Shown: positions 20,701-63,544 of the stretch, piece by piece | How positions within the stretch are numbered: position 1 is the stretch's first letter | How the letters are laid out: every line of letters starts with the position of its first letter | Assembly: GCF_040954835.1 (NCBI RefSeq) | Contig: NC_090696.1 | Span: forward strand, 72,291,722 to 72,355,721 | Length of the DNA stretch: 64,000 nucleotides | DNA from: Lepisosteus oculatus | Lineage: Eukaryota > Chordata > Actinopteri > Semionotiformes > Lepisosteidae | Reading direction: 5' to 3' | Notes under the pieces: generated by a model | Seen by the model: the letters and a program-made list of their open reading frames with translations, nothing else | Databases searched by the model: none | What the model was told of the DNA's origin: nothing | Program-made: the position numbers and the translations under genes

Positions 20701-23700
20701 ATTTTAACAGTGCAACGTCAAAAGGCCTTCCAGAAATGTACTGTAGATACACACCCTGTAATACCACCTGTACTGATCAAAAGCATGAGCATCTGTATCA
20801 TGTACACTTCACACAGCAGCAAGTCGAGTCGAGCTTCACATTTACACATCGCATTACTCCAACACACAGCGTTGATATATCTACAGAACTGGCAATTTCA
20901 ATGTTCAGGTGCCCTGGCATCGCCCCAGACACGTGGAGGCAACAACTGGCTTTTTGCTCTCCAAAGACAGCTCCAAATCCTAGCAGAATTGGAACAGGAA
21001 CTTATCCGACACAAAACGCCATTCTCCACAGTCACCTTCCAACCCTGAGGCACAGATGCCATGCAGACCTTGTTTCCATGCATGCACATGTCCAGGACTG
21101 AAACTGAGACTTCCTGGCCTGACCCTGTCTAGACAGGAGATGCAGAAACAGCAAGGGTGACATTAAATCTGAAAGGCAATATCAATAAAATTGCCAATAA
21201 AGTATTTAGGTGCTTATACAAAGTTATGAACTTTTTAAGAATGTCAGAATATATCCATAGGGCCGCTGTACACAAAGGTTTCTTTTCCAGTCACTTGCAG
21301 CACCGTGTTATTTTAGAGGTCAGAGTGGGTAGCTCTGTCAGATTGCAGGCTGCAAAGGATCAAGAAGAGGTTCATTTCATGCTGAAAAGTAAGAAGAAAA
21401 ACTGTGTTTGGCTGTGAAGCCTTTTGCAGGTATGTAGGGAAGAGTAGACATATAGAGCAAATGGATGATGTAAGAAGACCAAACAACGTGAATGTGGGAG
21501 AAGTTGAAGGGAGGTGAAAAGGTTGTTAAAGTTAAGTTCAGAGGCGAGAAATCCAGGCGAGTTTTGGAAAGCAATAACCTGCAAAGGAACGGAGAAATGA
21601 GAGAGGCTGCTGAGAGAAAGTGTAAACGACGTTTTTGGGGTAATTTTGGTTTCTGTTGTCTTTCTGGTGAAGGACTCTTTGAACTCTTTTTCAGTGTCGG
21701 GTCAGCTTCTACTTGTTCTGTTGGTATTTAATCACAAAAACGTTAATGAAAAAAATCATACAATGAAGGAGTGAAACTTACACTTGCAGTGGCCATTGTA
21801 ATCCAGGTGAAGGTTACCTCCATAAAGGCACTTTGCGGTGAAGAGGTGGCAAGCACTATCATACGTCTTGTTATCTGTGCCACACACCTGAAAAGTTTTG
21901 TTGGAAACAATGCAGACAACAGATGAAGAAATTAAAATAGTAGCTTTGTGTTGTAAACTGTCACATTTCAAGCTGAAAGTCTACAAATTCAGAATATTAT
22001 CCAGAGGACTCAAAAACAGACCTTCACCTTGTTTCTGGATGTGACCTAATGATGTGCTTTTTGCATACACAGGTGTTTCCACAGCAACCTGCTTCTGCTG
22101 ATGGCATCATAGATGACATAGGCACCTGGCATGATACCTTAACAATACTGGATCTGGATAGATGAAGTAATGGCAGACGTAGAAGCTGGCCTTTCCCAAG
22201 GATGTGTTTTGGTGATCATACAGGGTTTCACATACGTATGCCCAAGGACTCTGCACGTTGAGTGAACTAAAACATTAGTCCTCAATAGCTACACCAATGG
22301 AAAGAAGCAATTCATCATTTCCTAGAAAACTTCAGTGAGGGTCCTGTCAATGTTTACACCTGTCTGGGTACAGGTGATGAGTCACAGATTCACCACTGAG
22401 GCCCTGAATCGAAACAAGATTCCATTCAGTGGAAACACTTTCACTCCTGTACTTAAATCTCAACTTAATTTCTATATCCAGTGTGAGTCCAACCCTACAG
22501 TACATTCTCAATCCAGTCACCATTTTCTTCATGTAAACTAATACCCCTTCACTGTACTAAAACAGGATTCTGTGGGATGGTATATTCTATCACTGTGAGA
22601 CTACAGTCCATAATCACCAACAGTGCCGTCTTACATTTTATGCCTCCCCAGACCATTACAAAACCACCAACAAATCAATTCCTCTTCAAGATGCTGGCCC
22701 GTGCATAGAGTTACCATCTTGCTGTAAGTGGTGTCTGGATTTGTCAATTAGGCCAAATCGTGAGGTTCACTTAACTGCTGTGTGCACCCTGGAGATATAC
22801 TGTACAGTATATCGGGGTGGTGTGGTTAAGATGTGAACACATTGCTTACTGAAAGCGACAAATGGCATTTTCAGAGATTTATTTTTCAGTGGCTAGGCTG
22901 TGCTGTGACTGCTGCAGCTGCTGTCTGAAGGAAATATGAGGATGCATGATCCTTATCCACCTGCCTTGTGCTGTAGCAATACACATGAAAGTTCCAAACA
23001 TGCCCCATCATTGACATTTTGACTAGCATTGCATGTACTCGGAAATCAAAGCATTAATGGTATCTCTTTGAAATCTCCAGTTGGTTGCTCATTGGGAAAT
23101 TCAAACTTGAAGAACTCCCAGCACTTGATAGTGCTCATAATTAGGGATTGTGGTATCAGTGTGTGTGATGCAGGAGCTTGTCCTGATTCAGCTGTGACTA
23201 CACTTTGCACATGCAGGTTTAGGGCTGCAGTTTAAACAACATCTAAATAAAAAAAAAAAACAACTGGTGCTTTTTTTTTATAAAGCTGCTATTTGTCATG
23301 TGTAGGTTAAGGTTCAGTATATGTATTTAAATTGTATGGGTGTTTTCATTATATACAGACAGAGTAAACGGCAGTGCATGACAATTACTTCACATAACAA
23401 AAACCAGGAGTACCCTGCAAAACATGTATGACTAGAAAAAGATGCAGGACAACATCAATAAAAAATCAGATGGATTAGATTAGGACATGAAAATAAATAA
23501 GTGAAGCAAATTATGACTTGGGAAAGAGACTAACTGTCAAAATAAGGATCCAAACGGAGTTGTAGGAAATTCTAAAGCTGCAAAAAAATGGTAGATATGT
23601 TTTTTTAAACTCGCGATAGACATGCAGGTGTAGAACACAAATAATGGGAAAACTCACATGATCAGATATTCCAGCTGGTGGACAAGTGGAAGGATCCTGG

Positions 23701-26700
23701 CAAACACATTTAGGCTTATTTTCGTTATTGAGTTTACACATCTTTCCACGTGGACAGTGGTAGCTTTCACAAGGGTCTACAACGATGAACTTCACATGAG
23801 ACTTTAGTAATATAACTGAACATTTCTGAATGCCAGAACATCACCAAATTGACATTTTATCACACAGAGAAGATGAAACAGCATTTCGAAACAAAAAAAA
23901 AACATGGACAAAACTTTGCTTTCAGTTCTTAATACTTCAATTTCTTACCAGTATTGTCCTGCAGCTAGTAGCTTTGATTGAAAGTTTAATGTAACTGCAG
24001 TATAGAACTGAGAACATTGTGAATAAAGTCTAGAGTTTATTATCCCTTTATTACTTGATTGCAAAAAGAACACGACTTTCTGCAGGAGAACATAACTGAA
24101 GAGAAAATCACATTAGAAACTGAAGTTATACTTACGTATATACTCCTCAACTTGATAGTCGTTGTTTTCATTGAAAAACTGTTCCCAGGAATCTCCACCA
24201 ATATCATATTCTGGGCGATGTGTTTCCATTTTCACATCCTGGTCCTGAATTTAAAACAATAAGCAACGTCAAGGTCAAGGAAGAGATACCTGTTTCAACC
24301 TATATACAGTACGTACCACGTCTGTCTCATTTATATTACTTTCATAAGCAATTTAGCAAGCTGTTTTGACAAAGCTCAAGGTTTGTGTAACTCAATACGG
24401 TGCACCAGAAAATCTAAACAGCATTATTATGATACAAAAGATACACTGATCACTTTTTAGCTGTGGACACATTAACGCGTTAAGTTAAATGCATATTTAA
24501 CACTTTCATTAATTAAATCTTGAAATACAGTTGTTAAATTTGACATTTTTCAGAATTTCCAAGGTTTCAAAAAAAATTCAAAGGTTTCAGAGCTGAACCT
24601 AAGCAGCAAAGTGTGAATCAACATGACATACCATTTTAATTTTTACTAACTCCATAGATTCGGCGGTTTTCAGCATATCGATAATGTCTCCATTTCTGTT
24701 CAACACGTCTTTTTTACTTGAATCTGGTTTTAGAGCCCTGGACGCTCTCTTATGCCTCAGTAGGAACAAGCCTGTCTCCACTGAACCATCCTTTAAAGCT
24801 TTCTTTTTGCGTCGAGGTCCTTTAAACTCTGCCTGGTCTGTCATGTCTTCAGCTGTGCTGGCGTCCCATGTAGGAGAGTCGAGCTGTAAAATCGAAAAAA
24901 ATATTTAATCGCAAATGCTGTTTTTCAGTTTAGCTTTTGGGAGCTTTACATGTTCTCTATGGACGAATATCAGTGGAACTTGAAGTTATTAGTCGATTTC
25001 TTCTTTTCTCTATTTGGTGTTTAGAAGCACGTTACAGAAACTCTTACAACAAAATCACCATCTTTTAAAGGTCAATGATTCGTTGACTCTTTTAGTCTTA
25101 TTCTTAATTCTAAACATATTACCAGGTGGGCTGGAAGGGTGGAGAACGTGCCTATATAATGTGACTTAATTTTAAAGGAATGACCTAATCAGTTATTTAA
25201 GTCATGTGTTGATACATAGTATTTTTTTTATATCCTAACATGTTACCATAAAAGAGAGTATTATTACATGTAGTGCCAATGTGCTTCATCTCTGCCTTTT
25301 GTTTTTGTTGTACAGCTAGAATCAGTAACTAATAGCCTCTAAATAAATACGTATTAAAATAAAGGATCAAGCATGTATTTGTTTTCTGAGTCTACAATAA
25401 TGTTAACACTTCATCGCCTCTGGAAAAAGAGTCCATTTCTGCCTGGTGTGATGTCCCCTCAAACATTTTGTAATATGTCTGCATGTTTATACATAAGAAG
25501 CCTGATTTATGGCTTAAATTAATATCAGTTTGCTTTGTGATAACAGCCGCTGTGAGATGTTGACCTGATTTTGTTCTCTTACAGATGTCCCAGTTCTCTA
25601 TAGAAAGCTACAGGTCATCTGTAAGCTGTTTTTGGAATGTTTATTTAACGGTATTTGAAATTCGGAAAAATGGGACATCCAATGGTGTTCTGAACGATTA
25701 ATACATTAATAATTAATAAATGTAAATTACCATTACTGTAATTAATGTTTTCTGTGGATATGTGTAAATGGATTGAGTTATTCAGTTGTATTTTAGTTCA
25801 CAGCCCCTTTAATTTTTTAGAATATACCATTTGAAACCATATTAAGATATAATACAAGATATATTTTTATTTTAAAAATATATATTTTTATTTCTTTAGC
25901 ATATGGCATATAACATTATTCATTATAAGTCTGTTTTTTTTCTTCACTAACCTTAGATATTGTGGCAGATTTCCTTGTTGTTACTTCCCTGGCCTTCCTA
26001 TTTTTTTTAGCATTTCCTAAATATCCTTCTTTGATCAGTCCCATTAAGTTATTTTCTGGACTCGGACTCCTGAGAGAGTCCATTTCAACATAGCTGTCAC
26101 CCCTGACTTCTAGGGTCCTTTTAGTTGGAATCTGTGTTACCAGATGTCTCTCAGGACCTTTCGATGGAAAATCATGCTGTTTCCCCACCGTTGTATCAGT
26201 ACTTGGGTGTGATTTAGTTGTCACCTCTGAATCACTCTGGCTTGTCCGTGACAGTCTGCGTTGATTTTGTTCCACTGTGGTCTGTGTGAGAACAGAGTTG
26301 GGGTTTTCTAAAACTGGCCCTTCCTGAAGGTCAACAGAATCATTCATGTCCTTTGGCATCAGTGGTGTCAATGTGTTTTTCAGTGTTGTGGGTATCAAAT
26401 GAGGACCTTGGTTCAATTTCACAGAGGTAACTCTCTGTTCCTTTAGCTCCTCATTACCGTCTCTGGGTTTCACACATACTGTTGTCATTCTCTGGGTCAC
26501 AGGATAGCCATCAAGAATATTGCCGTCCTCGAATTCACGAACTTCGTCATTTTCTGGATTTTGTGTGACCATTTCTCCATCCAGAAAATTGTTTTCCTCA
26601 AACCGGTAATCCGGGGCTGGAGTGGAGATTCTTTGTTCCCTGCTCAAATCTGTAGTGCTGCCACCTCTTTTCTGGGTGGTAGTTGCTACAGTTCGGACAG

Positions 26701-29700
26701 CAGGTGTTACGGGTGTACTGGCTGGAAGTGGCTGAATGGTTGCTACAGGATTGTCTCTGTTGGCTGTACTCTTAGATCCTTTAATTGTTTTTGATGTCTT
26801 CATCCAAGGGACCTGTGCCAAATGGAATGCATAAACAAAAGTAGTCCATTACATTTCAATTAAGGAACCACATAAGAAGAGGACATTACTTTTAGTTCTG
26901 AGAATGTGACATCCTTTAAAACGTGTAAAGGCATACCATGACTAGACATCTGATTACTAGATGTATGATCAGCTAGTTTATTTATTATGGGAATGTGTTC
27001 CTCTTAAAATCTTATTGATTAAAAAGATCAAGTCGGACTGTATCATATTTACAGTTTAAATATCAATACCGAAATCCACAGATTTTTCTTTTTTAAATAG
27101 GAGCCCCAGTTTAAAGAAATAAGATCTACACACCATATTAAACCACCAATAATTGAGCAAATATGGTTGGTAAATGTTCTTCATCTGTAAAATAAATGAA
27201 CAAATAGACATATTTTTATATCACAGTTGGTATTGACACTCAGTATCTTGTTTCTGCAAGTTCTGTTGTTTCATTAACATTCAGAGGGACACCACTTATT
27301 TTAAATGGTCATTAAAAATGTCTTAAAGCTTGAACGTTAGGACAACAGTATGACAGAATGCATTGAAAAATAATGCATATTAAATTATTCTTTAAAACTT
27401 CCCTCCTCCACACAACTAGAAGTACTAAAAATGTTCAACTTACTTGCGCACTTTGTCTATACCTGTAGTATGCCGGTAATCTGTAGGTGAGTGATGTCTG
27501 CTGAAAGGATATGTCACAAAGTATGAAGAGTCTTTAAGTTCTGATAGTTTCAATACCGTCCTTATTAATTGTATCTACAGTACTTGCAAGTTTTGTCTTC
27601 GTTATAGACGACTTTATTTGTTCTATTGAAATTATGCCATTCCAGGCTTCCTATTCAAAATGGAACAAGAACGATTTCCTCTTTAGTTGAAGATTCCTTT
27701 AAAATGACACCAAATGTTAATTTAATAGGCTGTAAAATCTTCGAACATGCATCTTGTGTTTTCAGTTTCAGTAAAAATGGGATGCGGTTATTTTTTAACA
27801 AACTTTTCTCACGATACTCACACAGCACTTTCACAAGATTTCAAAGAAAATGAAAGTTGTATAAGCTTATGATTGAGAGGGTTTACTTGTTTACAGAAAA
27901 GGAGAAACTTTTCGCTTATAACTAAAGAAAGATTTTATTGCTGCAGCTCCCAAAATGTACTTTTGCATTTTAACCTTCAAGTTGTTTTTTCACTTCATGT
28001 GAGACACCGTACTTACTACATATTGAATTAATTCGAAATATGCAAACATGCTGGTAACTTCACGAGGTATTTCATAAATTAAAAGCGAAAATTGAAAAGA
28101 ATAACAAGGAAAAGCAGCAGACATTATACATATTGGGATTTAAAGCAGGACGACCTTTATTGTCATATCAAACATTTGCCAAAAAATGGCAACATATGAC
28201 AGATGTTAACTTCTGAGAAAGAGATACCACAAGTAGTATATCCAATTGCCTATCTTAACTTACTATAATAATTTTCTTTATTATAAAAAATGTCTGTTAT
28301 TTAGAAACCTAAAGGATTAACCCTAACCCAATGAACACAGTGTATTCATCATCACATTATTAATCATGCAAAACATATCTTAACATCTTCATCCCTCGAA
28401 AATCTGAACGTGTTAATAAAATCTATAAAGCGTCAGCCGCTGAATATACTTACTCCGGACTCATCACTGTTGGAGCTGTCTGAACTCATTCCGTTAAAAT
28501 ATGTCTGAACAAAGGGGAAAAAAATAAGTGAAAGGCAATTCTAAAAGATGGTGCTGTGATTTTTAAGGAAATGTATTTAATGAGTTATGAAACCCCCCTT
28601 GAATAAAAGCTTGAGATGAAATGTGTGATGAACCCTAACAGAAGTGACTCAATCACTATTTAACAGCATGTGCACAATTGCACAACAAAGCACACAAAAA
28701 TTATAAAACAAAAATTATATAAAACATGATAACAATTGACAATTTAAATTAGAAATGTATTTCACCATGATGCAGTATGTATATTTCTAATGCACCAAGT
28801 GTTTTTTTAGTTACATTGCTAAGCATTTGGCTGTTTAATTTTTGCTTGTTTCTGCAATGCATAATGATTAAAAAAGTGAATGACTTAGTGAACAAGCTAC
28901 TTAAATGCTCAAGACATACCAACTCAGTAATGCATACTGTGTATGCTATAGTTAAAGGGATGAGACTGAATTTCAGAAAAAAACAACACTGTGAGTTTAC
29001 TTTTACTGCTATACATTTAAATAGCTGTAAGAATTGCCAGTGTATCAAGATGTTATACAAAAAGTACAGTATGTGTATTTTCATGTTGTTTTTTTGTTAC
29101 AACGTGACATTTATAGATGAGCCATTAGAAAAACAGTAACTAGTTGTTACTGTAGGATAATGTTTACAGTGAAATGTTATGATTAAAAAAGAATTAGAAA
29201 GCAGATATTTATTATCCCAGATGTACCCTGCTCTTATAGAATCTGATACTTCAGGATCAAGTAAGTAACTGAAAGAAATCAGAATTGCATAATGTTGAGT
29301 CAAATATATTGTATTTGGCTGTTTGTTGAAAGTTCACTAAACCATTGTAAATGATCTGGGAATATAATTTTCAGACCATTATTCAGGAAAATCCTATGAG
29401 TTTAATTTTTATTTCTTAAAAATATCAGAACAAAAAAAGAAAAATCCTTGAACAGAATCAGGACTGTTACTTTTGGGGAAATTGAGGAAATAGTATTGCA
29501 AGGCTTAATGGAAATAACTATTATTCTTTTTAAAAAAAATCTTGTTAAAAATGTAATGTTAACAGCCCCATAATTTTTTATCTAAGTATGTATTTTAAAA
29601 AATGCTGAAAGATTTGTAAGGAATGTGCCTTTTGAAAATGCTACCACTCCAATTAAAAACCAGCCTGGAAAAAGAATGAATTTTAATGCAGGGGACTGAG

Positions 29701-46303: not shown

Positions 46304-49113
46304 TTAGATGTCACCCCTTTCTTCAGTTGTGCTAATGACACCGGTGACCCTAGTGGTCACAACAGGTGTTGCAGGCATTGTCGTTGAGGCAGTAACAGGA
46401 GCTGCAGCAGTTGTAGTCAGGGGATTGGCCGAATCGACAGGCGCTTCTGAAGTAATCAGACTCTGGCTTGTGCTCCATGCTCTGCTCAAAGCCTCTGTGG
46501 TCACTTTAGGTGGGTATGTGGTGGTAGTGGTCACAACCGGTGTTGCAGGCGTTGTCGTTGAGGCAGTAAAAGGAGCTGCAGCAGTTGTAGTCAGGGGATT
46601 CACCGAATAAACAGGCCCTGCTGAAGTAATCAGACTCTGGCTTGTGCTCCATGCTCTGCTCACAGCCTCTGTGGTCACTTTAGTTGGGTATGTGGTGGTG
46701 CGAGCAGGCTTTCTTGGCTGTCAAAAATATGCCACACATTATGCATCAGTTTTGAAATCCACATCCACTATCGTTCACTTGGACTTATGTTACATCATCA
46801 TTTACGTCATGATCTTTATTTTATATCATGCCTTCCATACTTCACCACCGGACGTATACTGCACATTATATATACCATATATATGATCTATCGAAAGAAG
46901 AATTAATAAAAGATACAAAAGTTAAAAGACACTTGTTCTCTTTGTTCAGATACATTTCACCTCAAAACTATGTGGTTTGAATAAAAATATTTTCTGTCTC
47001 GCACACTCACAGTAACCAAAATGATGTATTTTTATTCCTGCGGCAGTGTTATATTATCCACGGGTTTAGGAGCATGAAGTCCCTACTTAAGGTAATTTTA
47101 TCTGATATCTAAGTAACCTGGCATTCTCCTTCCCCTCTATGAGATATTATAAAGTGAACCAGCAGTGCAAATCTGCATGGCATCCAGTTACTTTCCATGG
47201 GAGTAAATCAAATTAGCAACGACTGAATACAGTTAACCACAATTTCATTTGAGTTTCCACATCCCTCAATTTTATTATCATTATTGTTATTTTGAGTTCT
47301 AAATATTATTTAGCATTTTGCTGTAAAAGAGAACATGCTTACACATGGGTGGAAAGGACGACGAATTATCTCCTGGAAACAGAAAATAGAAAGGTTTTCA
47401 ATTACAGCACTCAGTTACATATTATTGTTTTGTAATTAAAAAAGTCAACTTTAAAGTTACACTCTCACTTTGACTTCCTTTCACTTTGACTTTTTCTTCT
47501 GCTTTAATTTCTTAATAAACTGACAAATTTAACCTGTGTATCACCTTCATTTATCTTTCATGATTCTCTTGAAACTCCTTCTTTTTAAAGTATTGTCTGT
47601 TTATTTGATGATTTGTCACATAGTGTAAAGAAAACTTTGATCTACACTAAATACAGAGTTTCAGGAATGAGCTTTATAAAATCCTAAAAAAAGAAAAACT
47701 CACCCAGCCTCCTAAAGTTGACCAATGTCTGTTAAAATGGTGTTTAGGCCTAAACTAAAGGAGAAATAAAGCAGATGTTTCTCATTGAAGAAATGTGTGA
47801 TCGAAATTCAAGATTATGTAAGTAACTAAAAATATAACTATGAAAATATAACTAATAAGCAATTTTCCTATTTTTCAAATAGCTATTGATACTGAATAAC
47901 TACTTCTGATATAAATATTTATGCTCATTGCTTGTTCTATGCCTTCTACTGCTGAGATAATTACTATGTGGTGTATTTGCTATCTGTGCAGTCATTTTAA
48001 AAATGAATAAAAATAAGCCTATTGATATTTCTGAGTCTGATTAACATGTTTAGGTGACCTGTGTGTCTGCATTAATTCTTTCTTAGCCAGGCTTCTAGAG
48101 GTGTTGGCAGATGTTTTTAATGAGGTTCATCAAATTTGTGCTGCATAATTGTCTGTGCTGTCACTTTGTTACCTGTTGTTTAGAATCCTCTGTGACCCAC
48201 AAAATAGCCAACTTACGTGATTGTGTAGTGTTTTCTCATGAACAGGGTGAATGTAGGAAATCTTAGAGGAAAGAAATGTGGAGATTAATGGTAAAATGCA
48301 CACTGAAAATTTAGATTCAAACTTCTATACAGATAAAAAGAAGCCTAGTTTTATACTGTGTACATGTAATGTGTACTGTTTACTCAAGTAATGGAGTGTA
48401 GGCATCATAATGCAGTAGAACATTACTTTTCATTTTCTTTAGAGCAGATGTTTGAAATATCAAGTGGTTCCCAATAAAAAAAAAACTTTGAAAGCTCAAT
48501 TGTGTTAGTTTCTTTCATTTTAATGGTATGCTTAGAATATGCAATTATTTTCCTAAACACATATTTTAGAACTTAGTACATGTAACATACTCTTTTTTTT
48601 GCATATAATGAGTTATTTAAATACTCCCAAAATGTACGTTAAATTTCTTTTAAAATATTTTCTTACCTTCTTGCTGCTTGCCAAGTGTCTCTGAGGGTGC
48701 AGAATGTCGAACATCTGTACCAGACGAAGATGAACACAGCATGTTTAGTTTCACTTCATGGGTTCACTTCTTAGAACAATTAATAGTGATTTAAAAAAAA
48801 ACCATGACAGGAATATACTATAAGTGTACCTACTATGCACAGGATTAACAGGAGTAACAATGCAATTTTCCTACATATTATCCAATTTATTAATCTCAAG
48901 TTAATAATTGCATTTTTTTCTCTTAATTTTGATATACTGTAGTTAAAACCAATTGATTGTGAGAGAATTAGTCATGTGGCTTGTTTGCTAGTTAGCCATA
49001 GAATCAATATTACTGGCACAAGTAATAAGAGCTGCTTTAGAAATGTGAAGACTTACAGGAAGACAGCTTACTGCACACAGAAGGGCAGAAAGCAGAACCA
49101 GTACCTTAATCAT
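46304..49113 (-). CDS. SCPP gene with Thr-rich repeat C-terminus
   Basis: Four coding exons join in phase 0: 49057-49113 (MIKVLVLLSALLCAVSCLP, leader with GTAAGT donor), 48667-48714 (MFDILHPQRHLASSKK), 47343-47372 (EIIRRPFHPC) and 46304-46717 (PRKPARTTTYPTK..., 137 residues, ending STTEERGDI and TAA). The total is about 182 residues. The mature protein is Thr/Ala/Pro-rich and should be secreted and heavily O-glycosylated. I do not recognise the orthologue. A non-coding exon 1 and a TATA box are upstream. A 25-base candidate exon at 47686 was left out because it breaks the frame. The introns show nothing else. Confidence 0.75.
46331..46678 (-). repeat. Two tandem 174-bp coding repeats
   Basis: Two direct copies, offset 174 bp, each coding 58 residues beginning VTTEA[VL]SRAWSTSQSLITS and including NPLTTTAAAP and PATPVVTT. 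They are nearly identical at DNA level, so the duplication is young or homogenised. Confidence 0.92.
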
Positions 49114-52564: not shown

Positions 52565-53491
52565 TTAGTAATAGTAGTGATTCTCCTCGGCCTGAGCCGG
52601 GCTGTCGTGTACGACACAGGGCACGCGGCTGTCGCCGTGAATGGCGTCGGCTGCGGCTAGAATGATGCCCTCTGCGTCCGGATTCACGGGATCGACAAAT
52701 CCGGGCTGCTCACCGTTGCCGTAGGGCCCGTGGGGCCCCTTGTTACACGGCACCTGGACAGGGGGTTTCCTGATCCCTGAAGGGTTCCTCTTCGCCCCCT
52801 CGGAAGGGAAGAAGGGGATGTTGAGGGCCGGACTGCCCTTCCCCATGGGCGCCGGGGTGGTGGCGTCTTCCCCGCCCGGTTCCGCGAAGCCCTGGGTGGC
52901 GCCCGCGCTGGGAGAGGGGGTGACCTTGCGCACGCCAGCCGGCCACATCACCCCGGCGAAGGGATCCAGGTTGGGATACAGGGGGTTCGTTCCCGGGACG
53001 GGGAAGCCGCCGGCGACCCCAGGGGAGCTCGGGCCGGCGTTCGGCCCGCTGTCGCCCCTGCCGGGGAGGTTGGGGCCCACGGCCGGGGTGTTGCCGCCTG
53101 GTCCTGCGGGGGCGCCCTCGGGGTTGGGCGGAGAGCTTCCCGGGGTGTTGGGGCCGCCCTCAGCGGCCGGCTGATTGCCGGCGCCGTTGGCAGCGGTGCC
53201 GTTGGCGCTGGCCGCCGCTCCTGCCCCTTCCGTGTTGGTGGGAACTCCGCCGGGGGTAGGGGGCAAGTCTTCGGCCTTGGGTGCCTCTGTGGCCGCGGGT
53301 GCTTCTGGCTTCCCGGGGGATTCCGACTCCTTCTCGTTGACTTCGTTTATTTCCTCAGAGAGGGGGGCGCGACGTCCGAAATTCCCGAATCCGAAGGGGC
53401 CGTAGCCGTAAAAGGATGGTACGTAGCCACCGTACTGAGGCTGGAACAGAGGGGAGGCGGGTTCAGAGAGGTTCTGAACATCATCCGGTTC
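52565..53491 (-). CDS. enam: Enamelin-like gene, large terminal exon
   Basis: This exon of 308 codons plus TAA begins EPDDVQNLSEPASPLFQPQY after acceptor GATCAG. FYGYGPFGFGNFGRRAPLSE and the following E resemble the Y-F-G-Y-x-G-x-x-G-R-x-P-x-x-S-E-E stretch of enamelin, including the phosphorylated S-E-E. It contains one N-G-T sequon, an R-G-D-S motif (53048-53059) and two Cys in V-P-C contexts near the end, and finishes AEENHYYY. It is strongly Gly/Pro/Ala-rich and GC-rich, unlike its surroundings. Confidence 0.8.
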   Translation of the reverse strand, partial: EPDDVQNLSEPASPLFQPQYGGYVPSFYGYGPFGFGNFGRRAPLSEEINEVNEKESESPGKPEAPAATEAPKAEDLPPTPGGVPTNTEGAGAAASANGTAANGAGNQPAAEGGPNTPGSSPPNPEGAPAGPGGNTPAVGPNLPGRGDSGPNAGPSSPGVAGGFPVPGTNPLYPNLDPFAGVMWPAGVRKVTPSPSAGATQGFAEPGGEDATTPAPMGKGSPALNIPFFPSEGAKRNPSGIRKPPVQVPCNKGPHGPYGNGEQPGFVDPVNPDAEGIILAAADAIHGDSRVPCVVHDSPAQAEENHYYY

Positions 53492-56400
53492 CTGATCAAC
53501 ACTAAAGGGGGAGGGGGGGAAATATGGCACGACTGAAATATTCTGACCGCATTGAAATAAAACTCAAAATATTACCGCTCCTGCCTCCTCTGACTCTGCG
53601 GGGGCTGCTGTGTTAGGGCCCATCTGAAAAAAAGTTAAAAAGTTAATTTTAGACAGACGAAAGCGAAGTAGATCGATTTGGAGTGTATGCGCAGATCGAT
53701 TTCGGATGCAAGGGAAGCAGTTTGGTATGCGCTTACCCCAGCCATTGGTGGAAGATGCACGTACACGACTTTCGGAAAATCCTGCTAAATTGAAAGAAAT
53801 TTGGGGGATGTTAATTTGTGTACTTCACCTCAAATTATATTATTAGTAATTTAAAGCCTTGTGTTGTCTCGACCAGAATGAGACAGCAAAGTAAATATAC
53901 TTCTACAATAAAACACCTCAGAAGTCCCTTTCATCAGGGGTGTATTTCTTCAGTTGCGAAGAGCTGTGCCCCTTCAGGTTTTTAAGGCATCTCCTAAGCA
54001 TCTAAAGAACTGGGTGCAGCTACAGTAATTGCTTCATTTCAGCCTATATTGGGTTGAATTAGCTTGTTGAGAGTTGAGGTGAAACAGTCTTAAAAACACA
54101 GGGTCTTCTTGGAGTGGTGTACCACTGATTTACAAGAGTAGGGACTGCATAGAATGCATTTTTCATCCTTAACAAATGAGAGTGTTAAAGAGACTCGGAA
54201 TAGAAGTCTATATTAAGAAAAAGACTGAAAGGTTTTTAAATGCTCGGGTATTGAAATAACTGGCAACACCACAAAGCTACAGAACTGCAATGCATCTCTT
54301 ACTTTTCTCAGACGTTACTGACTCACCTGCTGCTGTCCTGCCTGTGGCTGAAATGCGAAGGGAGGGAGCTGTAAAGCAAACAAATTGTCTTTCTTTAGGA
54401 TTCATGTACAAGAGAGAAATACCCAAGACACCGCTGAGCTCCAGTTTGTCGTCTGTTGTGCTAAACGTGATCCATTAAGGAAGCCAGAAGATACTTTTGA
54501 TGATCTCACTCAGAACTTGTGGAACTATAAGAGCTCATACCCTTTCATAAACTGTGCTTAACCTGTGGCTTGCTTACTTAGTTAATTACAAAGTCTTCAA
54601 GAAATGGGAATCTTGGCTGTTATCAATAAGCAGTAACTATTATTATAAAAATAGCAATTCCATTCCAATGATAGCTACAGCTGTAACAAAAAAAAATCCA
54701 TGATAGTAAAGTTCATGTATATCACACTGAACACACCTGTGGTGGTTGCTGCTGTCTTGGGTACTGTGTCTGCCTGGGTGTATTTCCAATGGCTGGATTC
54801 ACCTGTTTTTTTCAAACCAAGAGATTTTTTTAATGTAGTTCGTTTTTAAACTGCTTTCTCCAGCTTAGGTGCTAAACCCTAGGAAAGAGGATTGAGATAA
54901 ATGGGGAGAAGCTAAAGGGGTTTTTACAGTTTGAATCCTTAAATGTATCCTGAATACATCTGGCTCTTAGTTTCTAAGGAAGCGTTTTAAATGATTAACC
55001 TACCTCGGGACTTGGGTGCATAGGTGGCTGGGGCTTGGTCTGAGGTATGGGGACATATTGAGGGACAACCTGAGTCACAAACATAAATCATTATACATAT
55101 TCAGCATGGACAACAGTGAAATTATAATGATCAGTTTAAGGCAGGATCTGCAGTTCACAACATACATTTTGGCTTGGCTGCTGAGTTCTGGGCTGGGGTG
55201 CGTTACTGTAGGATGGTCTTACCTGTGCAAAACATAACCATTGGTCATTTTACTTTGACTCCATGTAAAAAACGAAAGCCTGACTGAAACGCAGGGGTCC
55301 CGGTGATTGAAAAAGGCGGGCTTGGTTGGGGAGAACGCCCTCCCCAGGTTTTCACCTGTCTAACACCTGTGACCTGCGCAGTGGGCCATCGAAAAAAAGA
55401 ACGCTGTACAACAGCATTCGGGCTTTTGCAGTTTTCCACTGTACGATATGGTGCAGAGAGCTTATAAACATGGAGGGGGAAAGGGTTGTAGAAACGCTAA
55501 TGAGAAAAGATAGCCATGGAAAAAAAAACAACATACATTTGGAATGAACTGTGGCTGCTGCGGCGTTCGTCTCGCCAGACCTGAGTTGGGCCAAGAGGGA
55601 ACAATCTGTGGAGGAGAATGTTTGTTACTGCCAAAACTGTAGAGATCTGTAGCACCTTGAGTCACACTAGAGTCACACAGAGTGGCGGAGCTGTTTGTTG
55701 CTTACATCTGGGCTGGGCTGCTGTGGGGGGTCTTGTCTCATGCGAGGGATGTTGCCGTTTGAAGGATAAACCTGTGTGAGATTCAGACATGAGATATCTC
55801 AGCACTGTATTCCTTTTTCCCATGTTTACCCATGCAACTTTCAGGACACCATTCTCCTCTTGCCGTTTAGTCCCCAGACCTGTTTAACTTAATTAAAGAG
55901 AGAATCTGAGAAAATATGTTAGTTACAAATTAATTTTAAAGGTACTGTATAATTCAGAATTCATGCTTAAGATACAGTAATAAGAACAGATAACAGCACT
56001 ACGTGCTATGCAGAATTCTGTTACTAGAAGCAGTACTGTGCTCAATTTCTGGCATTTATTTTACTATTTTTTTTACTATTTATAATAAAAAACCAAAAGT
56101 TTTTAAGTTTTAAAGTTAAAGGACTGCAAGAAATGGGGCTTACATCTTGGCTTGGTGGTAGTGGCTGTTGAGGCCTTGATTGTGGTTCACCATATGAAGG
56201 ACCAAACTAAATGTGAATAAAATAAGTCTCGTTATAGGGAAAAAATATATTTTAAAAAGCTTTTTGATTAATGAATATAAAATGAAAGCAGGCCAGCACC
56301 TACCTCTGGACGAAGCTGAGGCCTTGCCTGAGGGACATTACCATAAGGATTGAACTGTTGGGAAAAAACAAAACAAATTGGTTTGGAAAAAGCCACGTAC

Positions 56401-59400
56401 ATTTTAAGAAACCGAGATTTAGGAACGAACACAACGAAGTTCCACAACTACCTCAGGGTGAGGCGGCTGAGGCCTTGTCTCTGGGACAGAGCCATAAGAA
56501 GGTCTGAACTGTGAAATAAAAAAAATATATATGTCAGTTTGGAGAGAACAGTCATGAATTTTAAGAACGGCAGAAGCCAAATGAATCAAAGGTTAGAGGA
56601 GCAGCTACCTCAGGGCGAGGCTGCTGAGGTCTTGACTCTGGGATACTACCATAAGGATTGAACTGTGGGGTGAAAAACAAGTCGGTAAGGAGGAAAAAAA
56701 GTATATTTTGCAGAAAAGGTACATAGGAAACGAACACAGGAGCTCCACTACCTCAGGTCGAGGCTGTTGAGGCCTTGTTTCTGGGACAGGACCAAAAGGA
56801 GGTCTGAACTGCAGGACAAAAAAATATGTCAGTAACGGAAATAAAATGTAGATTAAAATAACTTTAGGTCTGCAAAGTAGGCCCATAAACAGGAAACTAC
56901 CTCCAGGCGAGGCTGTGGTCTTGTCTCAGGAACGTTACCATAAGGATTGAACTATGGAACAGAAAAAACAAGTTAAGACCAGAGGGGGGTAAGCGTAATA
57001 TATTAAGAAGGCGTTAGTTTTAAGCGACAGGATGAAGAGCTGCTACTACCTCAGGACGAGGTGGCTGAGGCCTTGTCTCTGGGACAGAACCAAAAGGAGG
57101 TCTGAACTGTGGAAATAAAACAACCGTCAGCCTCGAGGAAAAAAAACAACAAAACACTGCCGATCTTGAGAATCGGTCGAGTCAAATGAGCTGAAGCTAG
57201 AACAGCAGCTACCTCAGGGCGAGGTTGTGGCTTCATCTCCGGAGCGTTGCCATAGGGATTGAACTGTGAAACAAAAACACAAGTCAGCACAAAGAGGGGG
57301 GGGGAAGCATATTTTAGGAAATTCGAGATTGAAAAAATAGAAATCAGGGCCGCAGCTACCTCCCAGCGAGGCTGTTGAGGCTTTGACTCAGGAGCCGGGC
57401 CGTAAGAAGGTCTGGACTGTGGGAGAAGACTTAGTTAGCGCTAAGGAAAGGAAGCAAAAACAGCTCGGAAAAGATGTTGGAATTTTTTAACGAGCAGGGC
57501 GTGGCGAGGCAACTACCTCGGGGCGAGGCTGCTGGGACTGTGTCTCCGGTGCGGTACCGTGAGGAGGACTGACCTGTTGGCCGAAATAGGAAGGTCAGCA
57601 CCGAGAGAAAAAGCGGTAACATAAAGAAATCGCAGTTTTAAGGCGAAAGGATGAAGGCGCCACAAGTACTTCGGTACGAGGTTGTTGGGGGGGCTGCTGA
57701 GGCCTCTTCGGTGGCACTTTACCGTAGGATGGCTTCATCTGGAAGGAGGCAAGGTTGACGTTATTCATACTGCAGTTTGACAGTATTAGAACAAATAATA
57801 CAAACAGGCTCGCAAGGTATGTACATTGGGATGTGACTCTGCAGGCTTCGGTGTTGTTGCTTGTGGCCTTTTATCAAGGATAGGGCTCTCCTGTGTGAAA
57901 GGAAACATTTCATTACAATCTTTCATTACAGCTTTGCTTTTAGAGTCTCTTCAAGCGCGGGGCACTAGGGTCCTAGATATGAAGCAAGTTCACACTCCAT
58001 CAGTACTTCACTGTGGGATTTAGTATTTATATATCAAATGAATTTACTTACATTTTGATTTGGCTGTTCTGGGAGCTGAGGGACATTGGGGATGGGAGAA
58101 TGTTCCTGAGCAAAAATAAGCGTTAAAGCAAAACATGACTTATTACAGCGAAACAGAAATGGTTAAGACTGAAGCAGTAGAGGAGGAATGGATACCCTTA
58201 CCGGAGGACCTTGCAGACCGGGTCTCTGTGGTTGCTCCTGTGGCACATTTCCACTAGTGGGAACTCCCTGAAGAGATAATACATGTCAGGCCTGGATCTG
58301 GAGACTTGCTGTGTGAAACTGAAAAAAATCTATTTTGGAGAGAGTGCCTTACATTTGGACTCTTCTGAACAGGGACCTGCGGTATCATCTGGGGCACATT
58401 TCCAAATGGAGGGAACATCTGTAGTGGATATGGTGAACACAGGCTATAAGCAACAGGAAGACTGAAATATTGATTATCTATGTTAGTCTATGTATATATC
58501 TATGTATCTACTTCTGTATCTAGCTATTGGTCTGCCTGTGAGTACAATTAGTTCGATACGCCGTTGAAAGCTTCGATGCCCTATTTTAAAGCATTGTCAA
58601 AATACATGTCGAAATAACTCGTCGTAAGTATGGAGCTACTTCTGCGTGCTCATATATTGTATCTATTGTAACAGCAATGTGAGTTAACAGCAGAGGGAAA
58701 AAAAAAACATTCGCATTGGGAATGAGACCCCTTCTGTCTTGATTGCATCAGAGACAGTGTAAAGATGAAACCAGGCACAGTTTATTAAGGGCGGGGCTAC
58801 TGTTTACACCTCTTAGACTCTAAGCCTCCTGCAAGCTTCATATCCCAACTACTGCATGCAGAGTGAGCGCAGACAGAGTGCAAGTGACAGGGAGGACTCC
58901 TATACTCGGCCGGAGTTCTAGTCAAGCTTTTGAAGTGGTATCCGTTTATGGCCGAATCTCAGAAAACCCTGAGATTTCTCTTTTTTTTTTTGGTGCAAAA
59001 ACCTTATCCCGTCAATTTTACACTGGCAAGCAACTGAGTAAAGCTGTCGTAACCTGAGGGGTCTGCTGCGGGGGTGCCTGTGGTCTTGGTTGACGGGGCG
59101 AGTCTTCTTCCTGTATTGAAGGTTATAGATCAGGGATGAGGTGCTGGGACGAGAAACCGAGTCCGGTGGGGGGGTGTTAAGGAGGAAAGTGGGGATCGTA
59201 AGGACCACAGGGCTCTCACCTCGAAGCTCTGCACAGCCGCTTGACGTTGTGGGAATCCGAATGGGAAGAACTGAGGAATGAGGGAAAGAGTGAATTAAAC
59301 ATTGGAGAAAGCACGCTCCTAGAGTAAATGGGAAACTGTGCTGAGGCAGGGACTTACTGGCATCATCTGAGGCGCATTTCCGTATGAGGGAATTCCCTGT

Positions 59401-62400
59401 GTGACAGATAAGTCAACGCTTAGAAAAGCATACTGATGGGGGGAGCGACTTAAAAACAAGGCTAAAACAGAGCGGTACCAGAAATCAAATATTCCCAGGG
59501 AGTCTTTTATGCGGAATAATAGGACTAGTGATGTTAGTAAAGATGTGTTACGTTCAGTACATATTGCTTGATCGTGTTTGTTAATGAGATTAAAACAACA
59601 CTTGGAACTTAGTGAAAACGTAGCTCCTGTAGGACATTTCACTGCTTACCCATTGCTGTGGTGAAATTCCAAATGGATATTGTTGCTGGAAAACAGGAAT
59701 TATTCATGTACTGCTGTCCATGGAAATGAGGTCTAAAGCTACTCTACACTAGTGCTGTGTTAATATGCAAAGCAGCGATAATTGGATAATATAGAAAACA
59801 AATGTTAAGTTGGCACATTTGAAAAAAATACGATGCCTGGGGCAGAGAGCATTTTCAAATAATAAATCACTTGTTTGGATGAAATATTCTCTTACCAAAC
59901 CTTGCAATTTGAACAAGTACCTTTCCACTGTAGGGCTAAGAAAAAAAATAAAGCATTTGCAAAGCGAGCTTTAGGCAGGTTGCAGACACAAAGTTGCTGA
60001 GACATAGCTGAGATAGCAGAAATTCAGGACATGCAAAATGATTCTCGTGCTGAGCTCGTGTTCTTTATGATGTGTAAGCCCTTCTTAGGTTCTTAATAAA
60101 AGTATATCTTAACATCTAATTTGTGCTCAGGGTGTGTTTCAAAGCTTACTGTTACAGTAAACAATTTCAGTTAGCTATGGTCGTAGAACAGTTTTGAATG
60201 TTTGTTTCCATTTTTTTTCATTCTAATTTAGATGGAAATAACCTCCAAGAAAACTGATCACACAGCAATATACAATTGCCGTTTTGTATATTCTGAAACT
60301 CCTTTCTAAAGGAGCAGTGAAATGGTTAAACTGCTTTGTTTAGATGCTGTGCACTGACTTTGTGTTTCAAATGAGGTTCTTAATTCGTCAGTGCAATGAA
60401 ACACCAGCTGTTTACAAAGCTTGGAAAACATGCCTGAGACTTTGTTATTAGCAATGAAATCCTAAGATATTAGGAGGAGTACTACACTGTCACCATTAAT
60501 GGTGAAAGAAGAATCACTGCTGCCATTAATGTTTAAATAATAAAAATAATAATAATAATAAAACTAGAGTATGAAGTAAGAGCTACTGTTTCTCAACCTG
60601 GGCTCTTTGTCACAAATCAGATTCTACCTGTGGATGCTGAGGCACATGCAGATATGGCTGAGATCGGAAGAATTGTTTCAGAGGTGGCTGCTGCAAAAGG
60701 GGCTGTTTCAGCTGCGGTAGGCTGGGCTGTGCGACCCGTTTCTGTGACAGAACTTGTAGCCATGGATGTGCAGGCAGGGAGGTTTGGTAAATCTGCAATA
60801 TTTATAACACTGTGAAGCCGGAGCTTGAGCAGGAGCAATCTACTGTAGATCGACACGGACAAGGCGTGCAGCAGTACCCGCCCCGCCCCGTCCGACACTG
60901 CTGACGGACTTTCGTACTGACACAACTGCCGCCAATGCCCACACTCTGTGTCCTTTCCAGTCTGCCGAAAAAAAAAAAACAAGCAAGCCTGGCAAGCGAG
61001 GCTTCGGATACACGGGAGAGTGAAAGGCAATAAAACAGCAGAGCAGTGTTTGGAGTTGACAAAAGTTCAAATCGAATGTGCCGAGCAGCGAGCTGCATAA
61101 TCTGCGACGAGAAACGAGGGCAAGCTTGCTGTGATCTAAGTATGTCACTGTGTGGTGAGATAAAAGATAAAATATTTCTTGTAATATCTTTCTATTGTGA
61201 AGTACAGAATGGTTCTTTTTTGTGTCCTCATTTAATCCCCTGTACCTAAAGATAATGGGTGTTCACAAGCTTTTGTGGTGATATGATCTTTTAAAAACGA
61301 TATTGACAATATCTCCAGGGTTGTAGACCTGCTGACCCATGTCAAAGAACAGATTGATTTCATTAAAGGAAAGTCACTGTTAAAATGCAATACCAAATGA
61401 AATTTCATTAAAATAGAGACATATTTGGGGTGTGGGGTTACTGAAATCCACACAATTGGAGGAACGTTTTAAATTTTATTCTAAAATCTTCTTATTCTTC
61501 TAAGGAAGTAGAGACTTTGTTACTTTGGCAAGGCCATTTAACAGATTTTACTTAACAGATATGTACTGATAGATATAATACGTACAACAAATGCCATTGT
61601 TTCCTAGACACATTTGTTTATTTTTAGTGTCCCTCTGTATATTTCTTCAGGATGTGTTGGTATTGTACAAAAGTGAGAGCATGTAAAATAAAATATTTTA
61701 TGTTCAGCATTTCAAAATTATTCTATCATAAGCTAGTGGTAGGCTTTGCATTTGTAACACATATGTATTTTAAGTAGAAAAATAAATAAATAAAAACATT
61801 AACGGCACAATAGTCCATAATGGTCCATATTTGGGACCTATATCATATCTGGTCCATACTAGAGTACAGTGATTCATTGAATCTGAGGTTAAACTAGTTA
61901 CTGTAGTGTTAAGCACACTGGGAGCGAATGAGTCATCTCTTGAATGGGATTCCGGTCCATCAGAATATCTACCTCAAACAATGCTGGTTCTCACTTAGAA
62001 GCTGGGTGGGTAGGAGCAACTGGAATAAAGTACCTCGCTTAAGGGTACAACAGCAGAGTCTGGAGCAGGGACTTGATCCCATAACATATCGGCTCCACCC
62101 ACTTCTACGCTTTTCCCAAGGACACACACCACACTACACAATACACATAAGACATTCCCACAATACTCTCCCGTATCTTACTCACTCTCAGAGAAAGTAC
62201 TCACTTGTCTCTGTTGCTGAGGTGCTCCGTACCATCTGTATTGCTGCATCTTTGCCTGCAGAAGAAATCTTTCTTTCATCACTCTGGAAAATGTGGTGTG
62301 CCAAAAATGGGGAGCCCCTTAATTGCAGTTAAAACACGAATCCACCCAGCATTTAAATTGCATGTGTAATGTTTCTTCTTAAAGAATGCTAATAGCTACG

Positions 62401-63529
62401 GATAGCTTTAGCATCTGCAATGCGTTGATTTAGGCATAAATTCTGTAGATTTGATTGCTCTATCCATATAAAGGTATTTTCCATTTAAATAAGTGGTATT
62501 TGGGAATTTAGAATGGGTTACTAGCATGAAAAAGAGTTTCAAGGTTTACCTCATGACTATCACTAAAAGCACCAGGAACAATCTGTTAAACATAAAAAGA
62601 GTTAGTTTTCAAAAAGTAATGCTTTTGCCAATTACAGTATGTCATCCAGACATATTTACCAAATGCTTATAGTGCTAATAAAACTTGAAGGATGTTTTGG
62701 CTTCTTTTTGACACTTAAAGGAGATTACACCACACACTGTGATTTGCATATTTGAAAAATTGTTTGACATTTCCGTGTGAAGCTCTACGCTCAAAACCAT
62801 GGTTCCTACTGTTCTAAAAAACACTGAAAAGAATTCAAGAATTCTCAGACTGATCTGTGAAGAAGCACATTGTATTGCATAAACCTTTCAGTTTGAGATG
62901 CCTGTTCAAATTATAAATTATAAGTGTCAATTATTGCAAACTACTATTCCAATTATTGCTTGGAAGCCTGTCCAAGTAAGCAGCTCAATGATATAAGCAG
63001 TGAGCATAGTAAACAACATAATATTGAATAGAACATATGTAGGTTTACACTAATGTCTGGCAAGGAAAAGAGATAGAGGTGTGAACCTCTAATTTTCTTA
63101 GTAGGTGTTCCTAATATACTTTAGGAACACATGTGGTGGGGGTAAGTATATAAATATATACAGGTATATACAGTATATAGATTAGATTGCATTGTTTTAG
63201 AATCTAAAAATATTTTACCCCTCAAACAAGGCTGTGAGCATCAGTAAACACTGTATAACGTTCTTCTCTCCTGAGCCAGTGCCCATTCCTGTCTTGTAAT
63301 TGATTGATTTGTTTCCAGGTCTAAAGGATATCCCTTGCCACTTATTTGTATGCGTGTTATATAGACAGATGCTCAGTTGTTTTGTTATTTACCCCATCCT
63401 CATTGATTAATATGTTAACTTGTTTAGAAATTGTTTCACAAAGATGACCTAAGGATAACCAATTGTGAGACTTACTGGAAAGGCCAGCGATGTGCCCAGA
63501 AAGCACAGGACCAATAACGCAATCTTCAT
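52565..63529 (-). CDS. enam: Enamelin-like SCPP protein, 32 coding exons
   Basis: Enamelin is a secreted, phosphorylated and glycosylated enamel matrix protein. Exons: 63476-63529, 62550-62582, 62205-62255, 60628-60792, 59650-59685, 59358-59396, 59220-59270, 59054-59110, 58353-58418, 58202-58267, 58052-58105, 57825-57890, 57670-57738, 57517-57573, 57360-57416, 57213-57263, 57050-57106, 56901-56951, 56752-56808, 56609-56662, 56452-56508, 56304-56354, 56144-56206, 55706-55771, 55537-55605, 55166-55222, 55004-55069, 54737-54802, 54327-54368, 53737-53781, 53576-53623 and 52565-53491. All are phase 0; total about 915 residues. No second leader or internal stop is seen, so I read one gene. The name rests on the terminal exon. 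Weak donors occur at 57825, 57670, 59054 and 54737. Confidence 0.75.
54327..59685 (-). repeat. enam: Array of duplicated Pro/Gln-rich mini-exons
   Basis: Twenty-five phase-0 exons of 36-69 bases share the core P-x-[YF]-G-[NS]-x-P-[EQ]-x-x-P-Q-x-P. In the centre two types alternate: FNPYGNVPETRPQPRLE (A) and FRPPFGPVPETRPQQPRPE (B). Type A lies at 57213, 56901, 56609 and 56304. Type B lies at 57360, 57050, 56752, 56452 and, modified, 56144. An A+B unit of about 290-312 bp, introns included, is thus repeated roughly four times. The outer exons are more diverged (MKPSYGKVPPKRPQ; GVPTSGNVPQEQPQRPG; VNPAIGNTPRQTQYPRQQQP). Confidence 0.88.
60628..60792 (-). CDS. enam: Enamelin-like gene, 55-codon Gln/Pro exon
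   Basis: Reads IYQTSLPAHPWLQVLSQKRV and continues with repeated P-x-L-K-Q and Q-P-P-L, ending LHVPQHPQ. It is the longest exon before the array. The preceding exon 62205-62255 is AKMQQYRWYGAPQQQRQ. Confidence 0.78.
62010..62110 (+). repeat. Interspersed repeat fragment
   Basis: AGTACCTCGCTTAAGGGTAC then AACAGCAGAGTCTGGAGCAG and ACTTGATCCC is a diverged copy of a common fish repeat, the same family as the pieces at 41680 and 51456. It lies beside the exon 62205-62255. Confidence 0.55.
62550..62582 (-). CDS. enam: Enamelin-like gene, phospho-exon
   Basis: Eleven codons IVPGAFSDSHE with S-H-E, a Fam20C-type site, right after the leader exon, as in other SCPPs. Donor GTAAAC. Confidence 0.72.
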
Positions 63530-63544
63530 CCTGCAAAATTGCAC
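63476..63544 (-). CDS. enam: Enamelin-like gene, signal-peptide exon
   Basis: ATG at 63527-63529 opens MKIALLVLCFLGTSLAFP and meets a GTAAGT donor in phase 0. M-K-I-x-L-L-x-x-x-x-L-G closely resembles the leader of SCPP enamel proteins. The acceptor TTTTCAG precedes 63544. Confidence 0.88.

Follow-up and report, generated by a model that had tools for sequence, protein, structure and literature searches.

Tandem exon-intron copies with two periods in an enamelin-like gene of the gar Lepisosteus oculatus

The proline- and glutamine-rich (P/Q-rich) exons of an enamelin-like gene in Lepisosteus oculatus raise the question of what was copied to produce them, in which unit, and what the product may do in the enamel matrix. 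The gene lies on the minus strand of a stretch of 64,000 nucleotides (the window; contig NC_090696.1, positions 72,291,722 to 72,355,721), in which a first-pass annotation had described a two-exon unit of about 300 bp repeated about four times. Four such units of 298-310 bp are present, but a monomer of about 150 bp underlies them and related exons are spread from 59.4 to 55.0 kb. Exons were placed by eye over 63544-52565 with the reading frame in mind, and the gene model, in outline, is as follows.

52565..63544, minus strand: enamelin-like (enam) gene, 32 predicted coding exons (E2-E33), 899 aa predicted
63476..63544, minus strand: E2, with the start codon and a probable signal peptide (MKIALLVLCFLGTSLAFP) recognised by eye
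52565..53491, minus strand: E33, large last exon with an SEE site and a GYGPFGFGNFGRR stretch, resembling the 32-kDa region of human ENAM

The alternating exons and their two periods

The nine exons E16-E24 (57416-56144, minus strand) run B-A-B-A-B-A-B-A-B, and the strict alternation of two exon types noticed earlier is borne out for all of them. The A exons E17, E19, E21 and E23 (51, 51, 54 and 51 bp) start with FNPYG and are one codon short, the third of the B frame being absent, and the exons in B position, E16, E18, E20, E22 and E24, measure 57, 57, 57, 57 and 63 bp. Among E14-E24 the codon-gapped FNPYG form occurs in these four A exons only, and the codon gap is a clean marker of class A versus class B. 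Strict alternation is one of 126 arrangements of four A exons among nine, a figure computed after the fact. The starts of the A exons are 312, 289 and 308 bp apart, in agreement with the 289-312 bp given before for unit starts, and lengths from B to B are 310, 298, 300 and 302 bp. The sequence patterns proposed for the two types held in part: the type B pattern fits three of the five B exons (E18, E20 and E22) but not the other two, and FNPYG stands in all four A exons but the full type A pattern is found letter for letter in none of them.

57107..57416, minus strand: dimer unit 1 (310 bp), B exon E16 (57416-57360), intron, A exon E17 (57263-57213), intron
56809..57106, minus strand: dimer unit 2 (298 bp), E18 (57106-57050) and E19 (56951-56901)
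56509..56808, minus strand: dimer unit 3 (300 bp), E20 (56808-56752) and E21 (56662-56609)
56207..56508, minus strand: dimer unit 4 (302 bp), E22 (56508-56452) and E23 (56354-56304)
56144..56206, minus strand: E24, diverged trailing exon in B position (E=2.5 in the six-frame scan given below)
57517..57573, minus strand: E15, array exon of B length, nearest in DNA to E17 (78%), E14 (77%), E19 (76%) and E21 (75%)

A diagonal at about 300 bp had been set beforehand as the test of the repeat. Counts of 8-mers shared within 57800-56100 are 40 for a lag of ~150 bp, 97 for ~300, 30 for ~450 and 98 for ~600, and the maxima of 200 dinucleotide shuffles of the same piece are 12, 9, 8 and 10; the expected diagonal is therefore found, with 97 matches versus 9 at most. 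When the 8-mers of 57760-56100 are split by compartment, exons share 16, 53, 10 and 59 at lags of one to four exons and intron cores share 3, 5, 6 and 4; the off-register lag bands of this split, being empty partly by construction, were not taken as a control. This split points to a monomer of ~150 bp, consisting of exon and intron, with a second tier of ~300 bp that is mostly exonic. The basic period is about 150 bp and that of 300 bp is a higher-order period.

A profile made from the nine core exons E15-E23 was tested on the 21 other exons, each against 400 shuffles of its own. No shuffle reached the profile score in the case of E7, E10, E11, E14, E27 and E28, one of 400 did for E24 and three for E25; in 13 of the 21 exons outside the core the motif did not rise above own shuffles. 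A six-frame scan of the window with the same profile returned 25 rows, 15 of which have E<1; all 15 lie within the enamelin-like gene, on the minus strand and in the predicted exon frames, spanning 59.4-55.0 kb, and the training exons account for nine of these rows. E14 and E15 prolong the array beyond E16, and the motif recurs in six outlying exons:

59358..59396, minus strand: E7 (GIPSYGNAPQMMP), E=0.015 in the scan
58353..58418, minus strand: E10, E=0.00072
58202..58267, minus strand: E11, E=0.65
55706..55771, minus strand: E25, E=6 (weak)
55166..55222, minus strand: E27, E=0.038
55004..55069, minus strand: E28, E=0.2, with the donor GAG|GTAGG as after E23

It follows from the profile tests and the scan that the exon family is longer than the four-unit block, in which it has been preserved best.

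Duplication history, intron DNA and age

The explanation considered here as probable is that the gene is an enamelin in which tandem duplication acted first on a phase-0 exon plus its intron and afterwards on B-A dimers, the resulting P/Q-rich stretch serving as a self-assembly domain. One phase-0 exon with its intron of ~97 bp would have been duplicated many times, and a diverged pair, in which A had lost a codon and B had not, would then have been duplicated as a dimer of ~300 bp, giving the four B-A units. Because the exons begin and end between codons, an added or skipped copy leaves the reading frame intact.

Alternation could also have come about without any duplication of dimers, if monomers were copied singly and selection, or gene conversion among the exons, imposed the A/B order. 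This course of events is less likely, as conversion would have to have occurred repeatedly to leave the same codon gap in four alternating exons and exon 8-mer matches are 53 at lag 2 versus 16 at lag 1. Third positions of the B core differ less than the adjoining introns (11/57 versus 99/194, from non-independent pairs of E18, E20, E22 and the introns following them, 57106-56355), a likeness for which codon bias, a constraint from splicing or conversion limited to exons could each account; CCT makes up 38 of the 61 Pro codons in E14-E24, so that the low third-position change may be due to codon bias instead of conversion. By whole-exon identity the two classes are weakly separated, with 14 of 126 relabelings as good over E16-E24 and 81 of 462 over E14-E24. 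In a tree of exons whose branches are unsupported, A and B cluster somewhat (shuffled labelings as low in 31/500 and 20/500), and in the intron tree no A/B clustering is present (445/500 and 450/500).

The duplication unit had been described as two exons with two introns. Intron DNA does belong to it, but the two-exon phase can be clearly seen only in the exons. Between intron cores one to four exons apart, more 6-mers are shared than in shuffles (8, 0, 12 and 5 of 200 shuffles as high), the corresponding counts at lags 5-9 being 30, 9, 81, 40 and 37, and a GTAG donor is found in nine of the ten array introns. The similarity at lags 1-4 and the shared donor type indicate that intron DNA was copied along with the exons. 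The array has in this respect what characterises tandem exon duplication of the AMBN exon-7 kind, namely that exon and intron DNA are copied and the frame is kept. A +5G is present in one of ten array introns versus 16 of 21 others (p=0.0012, with the grouping chosen after the donors had been seen). The absence of +5G from nine of the ten array donors had suggested weak donors that favour exon skipping; this idea was dropped, the U1 duplex energy being not weaker (median -6.4 versus -5.3 kcal/mol, p=0.58).

The exon copies E17-E23 are 69-89% identical. Synonymous change (Ks), nonsynonymous change (Ka) and their ratio (Ka/Ks) amount to 0.29, 0.09 and 0.30 in the B core exons, 0.61, 0.12 and 0.20 in the A core exons, and 1.07, 0.14 and 0.13 when E17 is joined to the latter, as estimated from a hand-made codon alignment in which 36-70 synonymous sites were added up from pairs that are not independent, which lessens the weight of the figures for the explanation preferred here. 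The core copies are old and constrained at the protein level (purifying selection), which makes a recent variable repeat unlikely, and copies so diverged mean that the array is not young. A recent coding minisatellite whose length still varies would account for the tandem order and the regular spacing, but it can hardly be believed: Tandem Repeats Finder (periods to 500) gave no row within 56144-57738, the copies are old and diverged, and five of six tested intron pairs are near random. For the same reasons of divergence (the Ks values of both classes and the intron pairs) the earlier idea of a repeat that tunes the length of the assembly domain appears weak; differences in array length between lineages are possible.

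A further explanation holds that phase-0 exons simply duplicate with ease in a tolerant, disordered region, as in a neutral ratchet, and that the product has no specific function beyond its P/Q bulk. It agrees with the frame kept by the exons, with the 13 exons in which the motif is not raised above shuffles, and with the independent duplication of AMBN exon 7 in many mammals, termed a hotspot in PMC4518657. The within-class Ka/Ks of 0.13-0.30 speaks of constraint on the core copies, however, and the neutral course is regarded as having a rather low probability.

Some observations weigh against the preferred explanation. In the gene model as drawn, GT-AG borders and phase 0 are found in 31 of 31 introns and a length divisible by three in 30 of 30 inner exons, but the number of phase-0 introns is in part a product of the procedure, since exon ends were chosen by eye with the frame in mind; alternatives exist for the acceptors of E31 and E33, and that of E33 was picked so that the frame holds. 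Introns do not alternate significantly in two phases (40/252 and 16/70 relabelings and 370/2000 random orders being as good). The p-distances of five of the six tested intron pairs (0.46-0.57) are near the shuffled-partner means (0.53-0.60), the pair E14-E18 giving 0.35 versus 0.58 shuffled. Trees of monomers, exons and introns carry no starred branch in any of the three, so that they are of no use for the order of duplication. With intron parity not significant and most intron pairs near shuffled, the dimer history rests on the exons; the dimer step in the introns, like the splicing as drawn, is a prediction from sequence.

Identity of the gene and its neighbours

The predicted gene has the features of a P/Q-rich SCPP: phase-0 introns as drawn, a likely signal-peptide exon, S-x-E sites (residues 27, 124, 521, 586 and 636 of 899) and richness in Pro and Gln. 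The P/Q region E6-E30 comprises 475 residues with 26.7% Pro and 14.9% Gln, and the stretch E14-E24 within it 208 residues with 29.3% Pro and 11.1% Gln. A furin-type RQKR site spans the predicted E4|E5 splice junction (62205/60741, minus strand; residues 45-48), just past the N-terminal exons.

That the gene resembles enamelin had been proposed before and is upheld by comparison with human ENAM, although the human sequence used was approximate: K132/P133 and N197 stand where PMC6785452 has them, but positions 421-422 and 920-921 are shifted by one, which a single missing residue would explain (1141/1142 aa). Against 300 shuffles each, the N-terminal exons scored 57 (shuffle maximum 46) and the last exon E33 scored 140 (maximum 112), with no shuffle as good in either case; likeness in the N-terminus and in the 32-kDa/last-exon region is what is expected of an enamelin. 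The region E6-E30 is no more like this human sequence than its own shuffles (94/300 as good), in line with the earlier remark that mammalian enamelin has no such array.

A SPARC-like gene (sparcl1 or sparcl2) lies on the same strand at 23.8-18.9 kb, with the Pfam domains SPARC_Ca_bdg (E=2.8e-17, open reading frame (ORF) 18880-19197, minus strand) and FOLN (E=4.6e-10, ORF 23514-23840, minus strand). This neighbour agrees with a position in the SCPP cluster near sparcl1; PMC13367325 places enam in cluster I, which in bichir, gar and teleosts was formed around sparcl1. Could the gene be some other P/Q-rich SCPP? No Pfam family matched the predicted protein at E<=10, which counts against enamelin, and the P/Q region is not above shuffles; Pfam presumably includes an enamelin model, which may not extend to fish sequences. 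With both ends of the protein beating 300/300 shuffles in the comparison with human ENAM and a SPARC-like neighbour suited to cluster I, another SCPP gene is quite improbable, and the gene is, judging from its sequence and its neighbour, very likely enamelin (enam).

Other parts of the window may be briefly mentioned. A USO1-like coding stretch is found on the plus strand at 12.5-12.9 kb (Pfam E=4.9e-11). Upstream of the SPARC-like domains there is an open stretch of 310 aa with RGDS (25919-26848, minus strand; no Pfam match at E<=1), perhaps an acidic exon of the SPARC-like gene. Between that gene and enam, an ORF at 46307-46720 (minus strand) encodes a Thr/Ala/Pro-rich, mucin-like sequence with no significant Pfam match and holds two head-to-tail copies of 174 bp, 93% matched (46351-46699). 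A search with 4227 RNA family models gave no match at the gathering threshold.

Known systems and possible role in the enamel matrix

The nearest known case is AMBN, whose exon 7 was tandemly duplicated repeatedly in placental mammals (exons 8, 9a-9e). As PMC4518657 describes it, there too a short exon with flanking DNA is copied in tandem and in frame, and a longer Pro-rich stretch results; the idea of such a lengthened stretch was proposed for AMBN likewise. AMBN introns are phase 0, as in the enam array, and SCPP introns are virtually all so, which is why exon duplication keeps the frame (PMC6732285). AMBN differs in having single, nearly identical 39-bp exons, up to six extra in horse, whereas the enam array consists of ~150-bp monomers with a dimer tier, exons of 51-63 bp (E16-E24) and old, diverged copies in an enamelin-like gene. 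The array is a larger, dimer-ordered variant of the known tandem duplication of phase-0 exons, differing in gene, in both tiers, in age and in scale. Mammalian ENAM shares the N-terminal region and the large last exon with its GYFGYHGFGGR-like stretch, but has eight coding exons, human exon 10 being the last (PMC6785452), against the 32 predicted here. No such array in a fish enamelin was met in the passages of literature searched, which did not extend to the main gar SCPP papers, so that a prior description is possible.

The product would be a secreted protein with a regular stretch of ~208 residues inside a P/Q-rich region of ~475. This stretch may be an extended domain, rich in polyproline, through which the enamel or ganoin matrix assembles itself, a role borrowed from work on amelogenin, where with longer PXX peptides the assemblies were smaller and the apatite crystals longer (PMC2787623). 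The amelogenin PXX/PXQ region is likewise a Pro/Gln-rich repeat of an enamel matrix protein grown by insertions (PMC2787623). It is built of tripeptides, however, and the enam array mostly of units of 17-19 residues, each encoded by a single exon and carrying F/Y, R and E in fixed positions; as the motif is not pure PXX the analogy is loose, which should be counted against an assembly role. Gar is reported to have no Amel, and Enam and Ambn are expressed in its tooth and scale (PMC6732285). As amelogenin is reported absent, the stretch may do part of the job of the amelogenin P-X-X repeat of lobe-finned vertebrates. It is a more daring and doubtful proposal that in fishes without amelogenin enamelin carries the matrix-assembly repeat, and that dimer-ordered copy number, changed by duplication or frame-neutral skipping, sets subunit size and through it the crystal form of ganoin or enamel.

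The array is an instance of an enamel gene enlarged by complete units of exon plus intron, in what appear to be two tiers. If the number of enamelin exons goes with the presence of ganoin when gar, bichir, bowfin and teleosts are compared, enamelin may have carried an assembly repeat before, or without, amelogenin.

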